A DNA stretch of 21,245 nucleotides from a virus. Below are positions 2,833-21,245 of the stretch, piece by piece. The DNA lies in IMG/VR virus record IMGVR_UViG_3300017773_000183, positions 1 through 21,245 of that record; one strand, 5' to 3'. How positions within the stretch are numbered: the first letter of the stretch is position 1; each line of letters opens with the position of its first letter. The notes below the pieces were generated by a model. That model did no database searches and was not told the DNA's origin. It saw nothing but the letters and a program-made list of their open reading frames with translations. Both the position numbers and the translations under genes were made by a program.

Positions 2833-3147
2833 ATGCAAAGAAGAGAATTCCGCAAACGGCGATTCAAAAAAACTGATTTCATTTCTGAGATTAGTTCCAC
2901 AGGTGTAAAAGTACCTGACAGTTCTGATTATGCTTTAGAAGGAGCCTTAAAGGCTTTTAAGCGCAATCTAAAGGACGAAGGAAGGCTTCAACGGTTGAAA
3001 GCCAACAAAGAGTATGTAAAACCCACGACTAAACGTCGGAAGAAAATGAACGATGCAGTTCGTCGCCAATCTTTAGAACATAAAAAGGAGGTGGCAATGT
3101 GGCAGGATATGACTTGGACAACTATAGTAGATGGGGTTCCAAGATAA
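2833..3147 (+). CDS. rpsU: Phage-encoded 30S ribosomal protein bS21
   Basis: The 104-residue product aligns without gaps, by eye, to the core of bacterial bS21. Conserved positions include A38-L39, F42-K43-R44, G50, L52, Y61 and KPTT at 63-66, followed by an Arg/Lys-rich stretch. Cellular bS21 is about 70 residues; this copy has a basic extension of roughly 25 N-terminal residues (RREFRKRRFKK) and an extra C-terminal tail with WQDMTW. bS21 sits on the 30S platform near the anti-Shine-Dalgarno and affects initiation, so a phage copy could alter host ribosomes late in infection. The gene is a single-gene unit between terminators, with late-promoter-like sequences upstream. It lacks a clear Shine-Dalgarno (the 12 nt before ATG are A/T-rich without GGAG), unlike most neighbours. 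Phage bS21 genes are already known from marine T4-like phages. The family call is firm; the effect on translation is inference. Confidence 0.9.
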   Translation: MQRREFRKRRFKKTDFISEISSTGVKVPDSSDYALEGALKAFKRNLKDEGRLQRLKANKEYVKPTTKRRKKMNDAVRRQSLEHKKEVAMWQDMTWTTIVDGVPR

Positions 3148-17197: not shown

Positions 17198-19239
17198 TGC
17201 CTATATTTTTAAGAGATTTTCCTTATGGTTCACATTTAACCTCTAGGGAAAATGCTATGAAAAGCCCTGGTCAGTTTCAACCGTGGAATACGTCTAAGAT
17301 ACCTTGGATGAGATTTACATCTAATGTTTTAGTAGATGGTTCTAGATTAAAGCACAGTGTACTTTCTGGTGGTTCAGCCAAAACTTTAGAAGACTTATAT
17401 GATACTAGTAGCAGAAATACCCCTTCTCCAGGTGTAACAGATGCAACAGTAAAACATAAAGGTTCGATGGGTTCTTTAAAAGAAGTTATTGTAAACTATA
17501 AATGTTGGAATTTAAAACAACTTGCTCAGCTAGAAAAATTATTTATGTCTTTAGGTAAAACTGTAGTTTTAGAATATGGCTGGAGTATAAAACCTAATGG
17601 ATCTAGAGTTTCTAGTGCTCTTGGTTATGATGGATGTTCTAAAGAATTCGTAGACTTTTTTACTTCTGCACAATCTAAAATGAAATCTGAACAAGGTTGC
17701 TATGGTGCAGAAAAAGGTGTTGTATCTAATTTTAGTTGGACTCAGAATGATGATGGATCTTATACATGTTCTACAACTTTTGTAACACCATCTGAAATGA
17801 TGATGTCTAAAGATACTAAAAAAACTACAGATGAAATATGTTGTAAAACTTCTAAAGATGCTGATGATAATGAAGCCTGTAAAAAGCAATCAGATTTAGA
17901 AAGACCTTTAGATGAAATTGTAATAGGCCAAGTAATGCCTGTAGGAAAGTTATTGGTAACTTCCGGCCGAGTTCCCATAGGTACTTCTATAAAAATGGAT
18001 AAAGAAACTACTGAAGAGGAAAGAGAAAATGCTGCCGATAAATCTTGGTGGGACTGGACTAAAAAAACTCTTGGGATTACTTCATTTACTGTAGAGCAAC
18101 CATATATTTCATGGTCTTATTTTGAAGAAGAAATTGTAAATAAAACTCTAATGGACAAGTCAGATAATGATTCTAAGTCTCACATACTACCAGCAGATAT
18201 AGAAACTTGCCAATCTGGGTTTAGAAGAGATAGCATTAAGTGTTTAACCAGATTGGACTGTAGAGGTACCAAAATTTTAAATGTTAAAGATTCATTCACT
18301 TCTGCAGACCCAACAGTCTGTTTAATACCAGATCAATTTGTATGGGATATGTTTGACCATGATGGGGACTTAGAGGATTTTACAGACACTGCAGGTCTTT
18401 ATGAATATGCAAAAAGAGCCCCTTTTGATACTGGAGAAGGTAATAAAGGCTGGCTAGGTAATATTCTTTTAAATGTTTATTTCGTAAAAAAATGTGCAGC
18501 AGAATCTAATACCTTAGAAGAATTATTATCGAAAGTTTTATCTGGGATAAATTCTGCTTGTGGAAATAATTGGGATTTAATAACTTTACCTTTAGAGTCT
18601 AATACAAATATAATGACCGTTGTAGATTCTAAGTCCTTGGGTAAATCAGTACCAACATCACATACAATTAATGTATTTGGAAACAATTCTATATGTAGAA
18701 GTGTTAATATAGATACGAAAGTTCCTAATGCCATAAAAGCTCAGGTTATGTATGGGTCAAATAGAAAAGGATCTTCTGCGCCAGAAGGTGATGAGTATAG
18801 TTTATTTGGTAGTGGTTTAACAGATGCCACTAAATCTTGGAATAACCTATCTCAAAAAGTACCAAGTCCTTGTAAAGGTCCAGATGAAGGTTCTACAGAT
18901 AATAAAAAAGAAAATCCTCAGGAATTAATACAGGAAGCTATAGATGACTTAATGGAAGGTGTTGATAGTGAAACTATTAATGCTGTTAAGTCTGCTATAA
19001 AAGCTAAGTTAAATAAAAATAAAAAAGTACAAGAAGTCCAAGACCCACCTTTACTACCTATAAATCTAGGATTTTCCCTTGATGGTTATAATGGATTCCT
19101 GTGGGGACATTCTGTTAAAGCAAAACCAATTCCTAGTAGATATAAAGATGTTATATTTATGGTTAAAAGTATTGAGCATAAAATAGATATTAATAATTGG
19201 GAAACCACAATAGATACAGTTTTAAGAGTAGGCCAATAA
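17197..19239 (+). CDS. Putative baseplate hub protein, Cys-rich
   Basis: A 680-residue protein. Features seen: GSMGSLKEVIVNYKCWNLKQ, then LEKLFMSLGKTVVLEYGWS (about residues 89-129); GVVSNFSWTQNDDGSYTCST near 174-193; and a C-terminal domain with FSLDGYNGFLWG, YKDVIFMVKSIEHKI and NWETTIDTVLRV. These are, from memory, shared with large unnamed hub-type baseplate proteins of marine myophages, and the final domain resembles the strand-rich end domain of phage tail hub proteins. It carries 15 cysteines, strikingly many here, including a cluster at 215, 216 and 228. A Glu/Lys-rich helical insert lies near 565-610. Its order after the tape measure and LysM protein fits a gp27-like hub role. No lysozyme or peptidase motif is visible. 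The specific role is inference. Confidence 0.6.
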   Translation: MPIFLRDFPYGSHLTSRENAMKSPGQFQPWNTSKIPWMRFTSNVLVDGSRLKHSVLSGGSAKTLEDLYDTSSRNTPSPGVTDATVKHKGSMGSLKEVIVNYKCWNLKQLAQLEKLFMSLGKTVVLEYGWSIKPNGSRVSSALGYDGCSKEFVDFFTSAQSKMKSEQGCYGAEKGVVSNFSWTQNDDGSYTCSTTFVTPSEMMMSKDTKKTTDEICCKTSKDADDNEACKKQSDLERPLDEIVIGQVMPVGKLLVTSGRVPIGTSIKMDKETTEEERENAADKSWWDWTKKTLGITSFTVEQPYISWSYFEEEIVNKTLMDKSDNDSKSHILPADIETCQSGFRRDSIKCLTRLDCRGTKILNVKDSFTSADPTVCLIPDQFVWDMFDHDGDLEDFTDTAGLYEYAKRAPFDTGEGNKGWLGNILLNVYFVKKCAAESNTLEELLSKVLSGINSACGNNWDLITLPLESNTNIMTVVDSKSLGKSVPTSHTINVFGNNSICRSVNIDTKVPNAIKAQVMYGSNRKGSSAPEGDEYSLFGSGLTDATKSWNNLSQKVPSPCKGPDEGSTDNKKENPQELIQEAIDDLMEGVDSETINAVKSAIKAKLNKNKKVQEVQDPPLLPINLGFSLDGYNGFLWGHSVKAKPIPSRYKDVIFMVKSIEHKIDINNWETTIDTVLRVGQ

Positions 19240-19790
19240 TGAAAAAAAATTATACAAGTGGTGGTGAATTTAGAGTTTATAAAACTGGAAAAGAGTATAT
19301 AGGATTTTATTTTGAAAAAAATAATGATTACTATGGCGGTATAGAAGCTGAAGGTACAAACTATATTTTTTTAATGGATTACAATATTAGTAGTGAAGCT
19401 GCTATTTTTAGAAATTTAAAAACAACATTTAAAAAGAAATTAAAACGTCCAAACTATTACAGACCGAGGCCTACAGACAAAGATTATGATCGTGGAGTAA
19501 TAACTAGATATTTTATTAAGAATGACCATAACAAAGATATATTTGAAGTGGATAAAAAAACTTATAAGTATTATTCTAAAAAAGATAATCCATTAAAAAA
19601 TATTTATTTAACAGTATCTTTTGATTGGAAAATATCTGGGCCACAAAATGATTTGGTAGATGAAGACAATACTATCTTAGCTACAGGTGTTTTTGAGACA
19701 AATAAGAGGACTTTAGATAGATATGTTGATACTATTCCGGAGCTTCAACTCATACTTAACTATACCGACCTTGCTAAAATTACCTCATAA
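19239..19790 (+). CDS. Hypothetical tail/baseplate-associated protein
   Basis: A 183-residue protein from the ATG overlapping the previous stop (TAATG at 19237-19241). An in-frame upstream ATG at 19197 would lie inside the hub gene and has no ribosome site. The N-terminus reads SGGEFRVYKTGKEYIGFYFE, a short glycine/aromatic motif I recall in several phage tail-region proteins. Further on are GVITRYFIKNDHNKDIFEVD (about residues 82-101), a SFDWKISGPQND segment and a C-terminal FETNKRTLDRYVDTIPELQL. The protein is very rich in Tyr, Lys and Asn and probably strand-rich. I have seen similar unnamed genes beside baseplate genes in marine T4-like phages. A minor tail or baseplate protein is likely; no enzyme motif is seen. 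Confidence 0.72.
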   Translation: MKKNYTSGGEFRVYKTGKEYIGFYFEKNNDYYGGIEAEGTNYIFLMDYNISSEAAIFRNLKTTFKKKLKRPNYYRPRPTDKDYDRGVITRYFIKNDHNKDIFEVDKKTYKYYSKKDNPLKNIYLTVSFDWKISGPQNDLVDEDNTILATGVFETNKRTLDRYVDTIPELQLILNYTDLAKITS

Positions 19791-19829: not shown

Positions 19830-20828
19830 GTGAGATTAGTAGACAAAATATCAATGCGTAGTTATCTTAATAATGGTAAAGCCATAGATTTAGATACCAT
19901 AGAGCTTCCTGTATTTAAATTTTTTAAATCTAAATACTGGAATAGGCCTGATGTAGATAAAATTATTCCTGAAAACAAACGTAGGGAGCAGGAAGAGGTT
20001 TACAATAGAGTTTACTCTAAAATGGAACCATCTCAGACAGAAGAGCATTATGAAAAAGAAATAATACCAGCTCTAAAATATATTGAAAAATCTGGATTGT
20101 ATACTAAGAAAGGTATGGAGCATAGTAAATATAATCTATGGACTCTAACCGGCAGGCCTTCCAATACCTTTGGTGGTATAAATTACGCTGCACTAAATAA
20201 AGATGATGGTAGTAGATCTAGGTTCGAAAGCAGATTTGATAGTGGTGTATTAATAGAGTTCGATTTCGATGCATACCACTTAAGACTTATAGCAAATTTA
20301 ATAGATTACGAATTTCCAGAAAAATCTGTCCATAGTCACCTTGGTAAAATGTATTATGATACGGATAATTTATCCGATGAAGAGTATGAAGAATCTAAGA
20401 GAATATCTTTCAGAGTATTATATGGCGGTATACCGAAAGAATTTGAAAATATAAAATACTTTAAAAATGTTAAGACCTATATTTTTAAACTATGGGATAT
20501 TTATAATTGTAAAGGTTATATAGAAACACCAATATACAAAAGAAAGTTTTATAAGAAAAATTACGAAGAAATGACTCCTCAGAAGTTATTTAACTATCAA
20601 ATACAAGCTTATGAAACAGAAAAAAATATAGGGGTTATATTATCTATACAAAAATTATTAAAAGATAAAAAAACCAAAATGATTTTGTACACCTATGACT
20701 CTTTATTGTTTGATGTTTCTCCTGCTGATGGCAAAGAAATAATTGGTGAAATCCATAAACTAATGGATATGCCAACCAAAGCAAAATATGGTAAGAACTA
20801 TGGTGATATGAAGCCTTTGAAATTATAA
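19830..20828 (+). CDS. Short family A DNA polymerase-like protein, no exonuclease domain
   Basis: A 332-residue protein with family A polymerase motifs in order. LTGRPSN (106-112) matches the PolA TGRLSS element, followed by INYAALN where PolA has LQNIP. Motif A is D145-FDAYHLR152 (PolA DYSQIELR). Motif B is K190-RISFRVLYG199 (PolA KAINFGLIYG). Motif C is Y289-D290-S291 (PolA HDE). Both metal-binding aspartates (145, 290) and the motif B Lys, Phe and Tyr are kept. The motif A Glu is His, motif C His-Asp-Glu is Tyr-Asp-Ser, and the motif B leading Arg is missing. There is no exonuclease domain and little thumb; PolA Klenow is about 600 residues. The start is uncertain: GTG 19830 without Shine-Dalgarno, with ATG 19854 as alternative. 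T4-like phages replicate with a family B enzyme, so this is an extra polymerase or a derivative with another role, placed among virion genes. Confidence 0.8.
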   Translation: MRLVDKISMRSYLNNGKAIDLDTIELPVFKFFKSKYWNRPDVDKIIPENKRREQEEVYNRVYSKMEPSQTEEHYEKEIIPALKYIEKSGLYTKKGMEHSKYNLWTLTGRPSNTFGGINYAALNKDDGSRSRFESRFDSGVLIEFDFDAYHLRLIANLIDYEFPEKSVHSHLGKMYYDTDNLSDEEYEESKRISFRVLYGGIPKEFENIKYFKNVKTYIFKLWDIYNCKGYIETPIYKRKFYKKNYEEMTPQKLFNYQIQAYETEKNIGVILSIQKLLKDKKTKMILYTYDSLLFDVSPADGKEIIGEIHKLMDMPTKAKYGKNYGDMKPLKL

Positions 20829-20857: not shown

Positions 20858-21245
20858 ATGAACATAAATGCTTTAATTAGAGAATGGGCTTGGCGTGTCA
20901 ACGATGGAATGCCAGACCCAAAAAATAGAAATCACATCCAAGTACTTGAATCTGTTTTAAAAGCTTATAAATATCCTCAAGAATTTATAGATGGCTACTT
21001 AAAAAACTTAACAGAAGCCGAAGTAGATTCTGAAACTCCCGTAAAATATAAAGATGAAAATGGTGAAAGAAAAGAAATGGCTTTTGCTACAGCTCTAAAG
21101 CAATCAGATGGTCATCCTGCTAGAATAGAAGCAGAAAAAATGAAAGATGAAGATCCTGAAGATACAGCTGCTGCGTCTAAGAGTATGTATGATAACCCTG
21201 AAAAAGGCTCGGATGCTGCTGAAAAGAAAGCTATAGAAAAGAAAC
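20858..21245 (+). CDS. Hypothetical protein, partial at the right edge
   Basis: 129 residues are visible, open to the window end. ATG 20858 is chosen because AAGGA lies about 7 nt upstream; ATG 20851 is out of frame and stops after nine codons. The N-terminus MNINALIREWAWRVNDGMPD with NRNHIQVLESVLKAYKYPQE is a helical module (residues 1-55) that I recall in unnamed marine myophage proteins. It ends KNLTE, an (L/I)xE-type site. Residues about 62-90 hold VKYKDENGERKEM and DGHPAR, another short motif that recurs in phage proteins. The remainder is Asp, Glu, Lys and Ala-rich and probably disordered. Function unknown; a virion or head-internal protein is possible. Confidence 0.78.
   Translation, partial: MNINALIREWAWRVNDGMPDPKNRNHIQVLESVLKAYKYPQEFIDGYLKNLTEAEVDSETPVKYKDENGERKEMAFATALKQSDGHPARIEAEKMKDEDPEDTAAASKSMYDNPEKGSDAAEKKAIEKK

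Follow-up and report, generated by a model that had tools for sequence, protein, structure and literature searches.

A divPolA1-type family A polymerase without an exonuclease core at the 3′ edge of a T4-like virion module

The window analyzed here, a 21,245-nt stretch of an IMG/VR virus record (IMGVR_UViG_3300017773_000183), encodes Gp23, PhoH, tail sheath, tail tube, and T4-type baseplate proteins. This gene set confirms a T4-like virion module. Just upstream of the capsid region, a small ORF (2833–3147) matches ribosomal protein S21 (phrog_21469, 5e-7). The module ends with a conserved protein of ~181–197 aa (19197..19790; this and all window features below are on the + strand), followed by a 332-aa ORF with a GTG start (19830..20828) identified by sequence, structural model, and tree as a divPolA1-type family A DNA polymerase comprising palm and fingers. 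The last ORF (20858..21244) is the start of a ~700-aa charged protein, cut by the window end, which follows the polymerase in many loci (718 aa in L005:7030–9186; 694 aa in L006:7023–9107). It carries a conserved motif (IREWAWRVNDGMPD-like) at its N terminus and matches no family.

A preliminary description had placed the polymerase gene inside the virion cluster; it is instead located at the 3′ edge, as the first gene of a replication/recombination block. The window ends one gene past the polymerase, and the downstream order is known from relatives. Across loci, a hub-like protein and the ~181-aa protein come before PolA; after it come the large charged protein, a ~130-aa protein, in some cases the UV-damage endonuclease UvdE, and then gp32, UvsX, 5′ nuclease, and helicase. 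Among loci from the same subclade as the window, UvdE is encoded in L005, L006, and L008, and gp32 and UvsX in L006 and L008.

The 332-aa ORF matches Pfam DNA_pol_A (PF00476) with an E-value of 1.6e-8 and 34.4 bits, just above the curated cut-off of 34.3, and 39 of 49 divPolA1 family members match it at E 0.01 or better. Using phmmer, the ORF matched Klenow and Taq with all motifs in order, and a profile built from 49 non-redundant relatives reached Klenow at 4e-6. The AlphaFold2 model, made from 46 natural sequences (L001–L003 were left out of the model alignments), has a mean pLDDT of 92.5 and a pTM of 0.88. It aligns to the palm and fingers of Pol I (Bst residues 368–876; VIA Z 25.5, 322 residues aligned, rmsd 3.4), so the predicted fold is that of a polymerase palm, as the preliminary description had supposed. 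The top structural matches are the Bst, Taq, and Pol theta polymerases, the best in Foldseek being Pol theta (8efk, E 1.4e-14), and all listed sequence and fold matches are DNA polymerases as opposed to T7-type single-subunit RNA polymerases. The ORF is a family A polymerase core in which both catalytic Asp residues are kept. It shares with Klenow, Bst, and Taq the palm and fingers fold, the TGR element, and motifs A, B, and C in order, but at only 15–20% identity, with E710, R754, H881, and E883 replaced, the thumb cut from ~120 residues to ~17, and the exonuclease core absent. DNA polymerase theta is a proofreading-free family A repair polymerase and resembles the window protein in that respect; however, the window protein has no helicase domain, is about half the size, and aligns to Pol theta with a Z no better than to Bst or Taq.

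The TGR element (residues 107–109), Asp145, and Asp290 are present, as the preliminary description had it. TGRPSN (T107–N112, 20148..20165) includes R109, equivalent to Klenow R668, and its R, P, and N are invariant. Motif A, DFDAYHLR (D145–R152, 20262..20285), contains catalytic D145 and has an invariant His150 at the E710 steric gate. Motif B (Y186–G199, 20385..20426) has Y186 at R754, with K190, F194, and Y198 corresponding to K758, F762, and Y766, all invariant. The segment NYQIQAYETE (N255–E264, 20592..20621) holds the N845/Q849 equivalents as well as an invariant, family-specific E262–T263, and in motif C, YDSLLFD (Y289–D295, 20694..20714), catalytic D290 is flanked by Tyr and by Ser/Ala replacing His and Glu. 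All 49 rows are invariant at R109, D145, H150, Y186, K190, F194, Y198, G199, Q259, E262, T263, Y289, D290, and D295; position 291 (Klenow E883) varies between Ser and Ala. The replacements reported earlier (E710 by His150, R754 by Tyr186, H881 by Tyr289, E883 by Ser291) are thus real, and they are family traits, fixed at every position except 291.

Three full-length phage PolAs (CRP-3, RODI, and immuto gp199) have Glu as the steric-gate residue, and none of the regular PolAs in this comparison offers a precedent for the invariant His, which is the most distinctive point of the divPolA1 active site. The change at E883 is not fatal, as the polymerase of Thermus phage Tt72 has Ser at this position (S616) and is active; its S616A variant keeps 76% of activity, and E389A, at the E710 equivalent, keeps 35% (PMC9324360). 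Tt72 polymerase is similar to the window protein in being a phage PolA with this Ser, but differs in being full-length and in keeping both a steric-gate Glu and strong proofreading (PMC9324360).

The divPolA1 family was named by Yutin et al. (2024; Virol J 21:200, PMC11348598) for a divergent PolA found in 14 phages with genomes of 155–190 kb, including immuto phages, and encoded besides a regular polymerase of family A, B, or C. These authors described an intact palm, a truncated thumb, and an inactivated exonuclease, independently inferred that polymerase activity is kept and exonuclease activity lost, and noted that gene neighborhood is better conserved around divPolA1 than around the regular polymerase (PMC11348598). 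The name occurs, in the literature searched, only in that paper and its preprint. The member in Flavobacterium phage immuto, of which the paper names three genomes, is 37.8% identical to the window protein (E 2e-47). Relatives were found by tblastn in immuto (gene 1, annotated as DNA polymerase family A), Microcystis phage Mel-JY01, and a 484-kb uncultured phage; IMG/VR contains at least 386 related loci, of which 80 were kept, and seven MAG contigs carry relatives.

The window protein is a new member of divPolA1, a family known since 2024 (PMC11348598), and not the one-off oddity it had seemed. It has the defining features in common with the described set: the sequence family, second-polymerase status, intact palm, truncated thumb, lack of a working exonuclease, and a conserved replication neighborhood. 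Our results add to the known family at least 386 loci, a reduced subclade, the extent of thumb reduction, family-wide active-site traits, and a conserved gene block. The divPolA2 of barbaviruses is likewise an exonuclease-less second PolA with an altered thumb but, from the paper's description, belongs to a different group and has an unrelated N-terminal domain and a variable neighborhood (PMC11348598).

Most divPolA1 members are 408–452 aa long and keep the exonuclease core as an inactive remnant, in contrast to the window protein and six other non-redundant rows, which are 332–339 aa and have lost the core outright. These short forms start at the equivalent of Bst residue 368. The model of a 446-aa relative, by contrast, aligns to Bst from residue 302 onward, so this protein keeps an exonuclease-like domain. 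The earlier observation that no proofreading domain is present is borne out by the window model, which begins at Bst 368 and lacks the exonuclease core; residues 1–84 (19830..20081) are modeled as a helical remnant of the Pol I exonuclease-like domain, matching its C-terminal part. In the tree the 332–339 aa forms make up one clade (support 99/95) nested among the long forms, which can be explained by a single loss of the core. The dN/dS between the window gene and its nearest relatives is about 0.09, a rough ratio given that dS is near or above 1; this value argues that the loss is not decay and that the gene is under purifying selection. Next, residues 85–106 (20082..20147) consist of an IEKSG element and then 17 residues in place of the thumb. 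The stretch from IE.NG to TGR is 17–34 residues family-wide, compared to 121 in Klenow, so that very little of a thumb remains anywhere in the family. The window member belongs to the most reduced branch of divPolA1.

A split or frameshifted full-length polymerase does not account for the short ORF, as close relatives on independent contigs share its length and neighbors, and the flanking ORFs have no polymerase domains. The preliminary description had considered that the missing domains might reside in neighboring ORFs; none do, and the ORF upstream is a conserved separate protein, present at the same place in relatives, including before the long, exonuclease-bearing forms. A search for a separate PolA-type exonuclease gave no DNA_pol_A_exo1 match in 12 records other than the full PolA of immuto. 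Rhodothermus phage RM378, whose split polymerase we took to be a possible precedent, was also rejected: its 313-aa “DNA polymerase” (L109, 21996–22937) is not matched by the divPolA1 profile. By eye, the RM378 protein resembles the exonuclease part of a family B enzyme, which suggests a split PolB.

As had been proposed, this would be a second polymerase: 10 of 12 related records encode a family B polymerase, among them both long contigs of the exonuclease-less subclade (G006 and G009), a status that is read from relatives, the window record being a 21-kb fragment. Immuto, the eleventh, has no PolB and instead encodes a full-length PolA with exonuclease and polymerase domains; the remaining record (G008) is a 63-kb fragment. 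The regular PolB of Mel-JY01 adjoins clamp-loader genes. A search for sliding-clamp families gave no match in any control genome and so was uninformative. Replacement of a primase by divPolA1 was considered and rejected, since immuto and Mel-JY01 each have an annotated primase and a primase-type Toprim match occurs in three records (G002, G004, and immuto); in these three, the match indicates that priming is independent of divPolA1.

All nine records searched encode a 5′ nuclease like the N-terminal one of Pol I (PF02739), mostly within the block, and six of the nine encode UvdE (G001, G002, G004, G005, G006, and G009); UvdE also lies at L006:10694–11617 and L005:10139–11041. A tblastn search of 50,697 phage records gave UvdE matches in 85; those listed are Erwinia, Vibrio, Dickeya, Aeromonas, Bacillus, and Listeria phages, with no cyanophage among them. 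Because these two figures come from different methods and habitats, the enrichment in divPolA1 contigs (6/9 vs. 85/50,697) is suggestive only, and it may reflect a sunlit marine habitat and shared ancestry. Only in L020 and the window's subclade does UvdE fall inside the block; other genomes carry it at a different place, and immuto, Mel-JY01, and G003 gave no UvdE match. It is therefore not an obligate partner of divPolA1, and is possibly a UV-repair trait of this T4-like group.

Taken together, we give about an even chance to the reading in which divPolA1 is a catalytically active, template-directed DNA polymerase, acting on short gaps in a distributive manner, and is not a replicase. The window protein is very probably an active polymerase, and divPolA1 would most likely serve repair or recombination with low processivity. 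We propose that gp32 and UvsX, whose genes follow within a few positions in relatives, would act on single-stranded gaps and on recombination intermediates; the 5′ nuclease of the same block would take off flaps and damaged or RNA-containing ends; UvdE, in the many of these phages that have it, would nick at UV lesions; and divPolA1 would fill the resulting gap for a ligase to seal. The absence of proofreading and of a thumb fits a distributive enzyme better than a replicase, and a short-gap role is favored by the proximity of single-stranded DNA-binding protein, recombinase, and 5′ nuclease genes, together with a regular replicase encoded elsewhere. With the thumb nearly absent, DNA binding by divPolA1 is uncertain, and the enzyme would be weakly processive unless a partner supplies the grip. 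Of the preliminary reading, a second palm-and-fingers polymerase without proofreading stands, and a lone oddity in a virion cluster does not.

The neighborhood does not by itself separate replication from repair, since gp32, UvsX, 5′ nuclease, and helicase serve both. One reading, which we consider rather unlikely, is that divPolA1 and the separate 5′ nuclease act as a split Pol I (Taq-like, without proofreading) in lagging-strand maturation: together they would take off the RNA primers and fill in the Okazaki gaps left by the main replicase. The PF02739 nuclease in every record, and the single-stranded DNA-binding protein and replicative helicase in the block, agree with it, and by sequence it cannot be separated from a gap-filling repair role; however, T4-like phages have an equivalent 5′ nuclease and carry out Okazaki maturation without any PolA, and most of the thumb that Pol I needs for nick translation is missing. 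A main role in genome replication, for example in initiation or on one strand, with the regular polymerase the lesser enzyme, was left open by Yutin et al. and would agree with the gene block conserved here and with a divPolA1 neighborhood more stable than that of the regular polymerase (PMC11348598). We judge this role quite improbable, as an enzyme with neither thumb nor proofreading is an unlikely replicase for a 160–190 kb genome, and in Mel-JY01 it is the regular PolB that sits beside clamp-loader genes.

The active site invites two further alternatives. That divPolA1 accepts ribonucleotides, or makes RNA or mixed primers, is possible given the invariant His150 in place of the steric-gate Glu and the motif C change, in which E883 is Ser/Ala throughout and YDS resembles the HDS of T7 RNA polymerase. 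We nonetheless find it very unlikely: His is bulky and may serve as a gate no less than Glu does, a primase is encoded by several of these phages, and Ser at the E883 position also occurs in the ordinary DNA polymerase of Tt72 (PMC9324360). The reduced thumb and several altered active-site residues could also indicate a non-catalytic derivative with a DNA-binding or structural function, an option raised in the preliminary description. Both metal-binding Asp residues, the TGR Arg, the motif B Lys and Tyr, and the Q849 equivalent are, however, invariant in 49 diverse members, and the gene appears to be under purifying selection; with the core catalytic residues unchanged, a non-polymerase function is highly improbable.

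The divPolA1 family is a widespread second polymerase of marine T4-like phages and may offer insight into the repair of UV-damaged DNA by phages in the ocean. Its window member, although very small for a family A polymerase, has a full motif set, and poses the questions of how little of Pol I suffices to make DNA and what takes over from the thumb and from Glu at the steric gate. A doubtful but specific idea is that the His gate, the motif B Tyr, and Glu262 provide a new nucleotide selection that would admit ribonucleotides or damaged or modified nucleotides, and that the near-thumbless core would need a phage partner protein from the same block. A protein of ~130–151 aa is encoded between the polymerase and gp32 in nearly all loci (e.g., L006:9113–9505 and L003:1346–1801); it had no Pfam or PHROG match and is a candidate partner of divPolA1.
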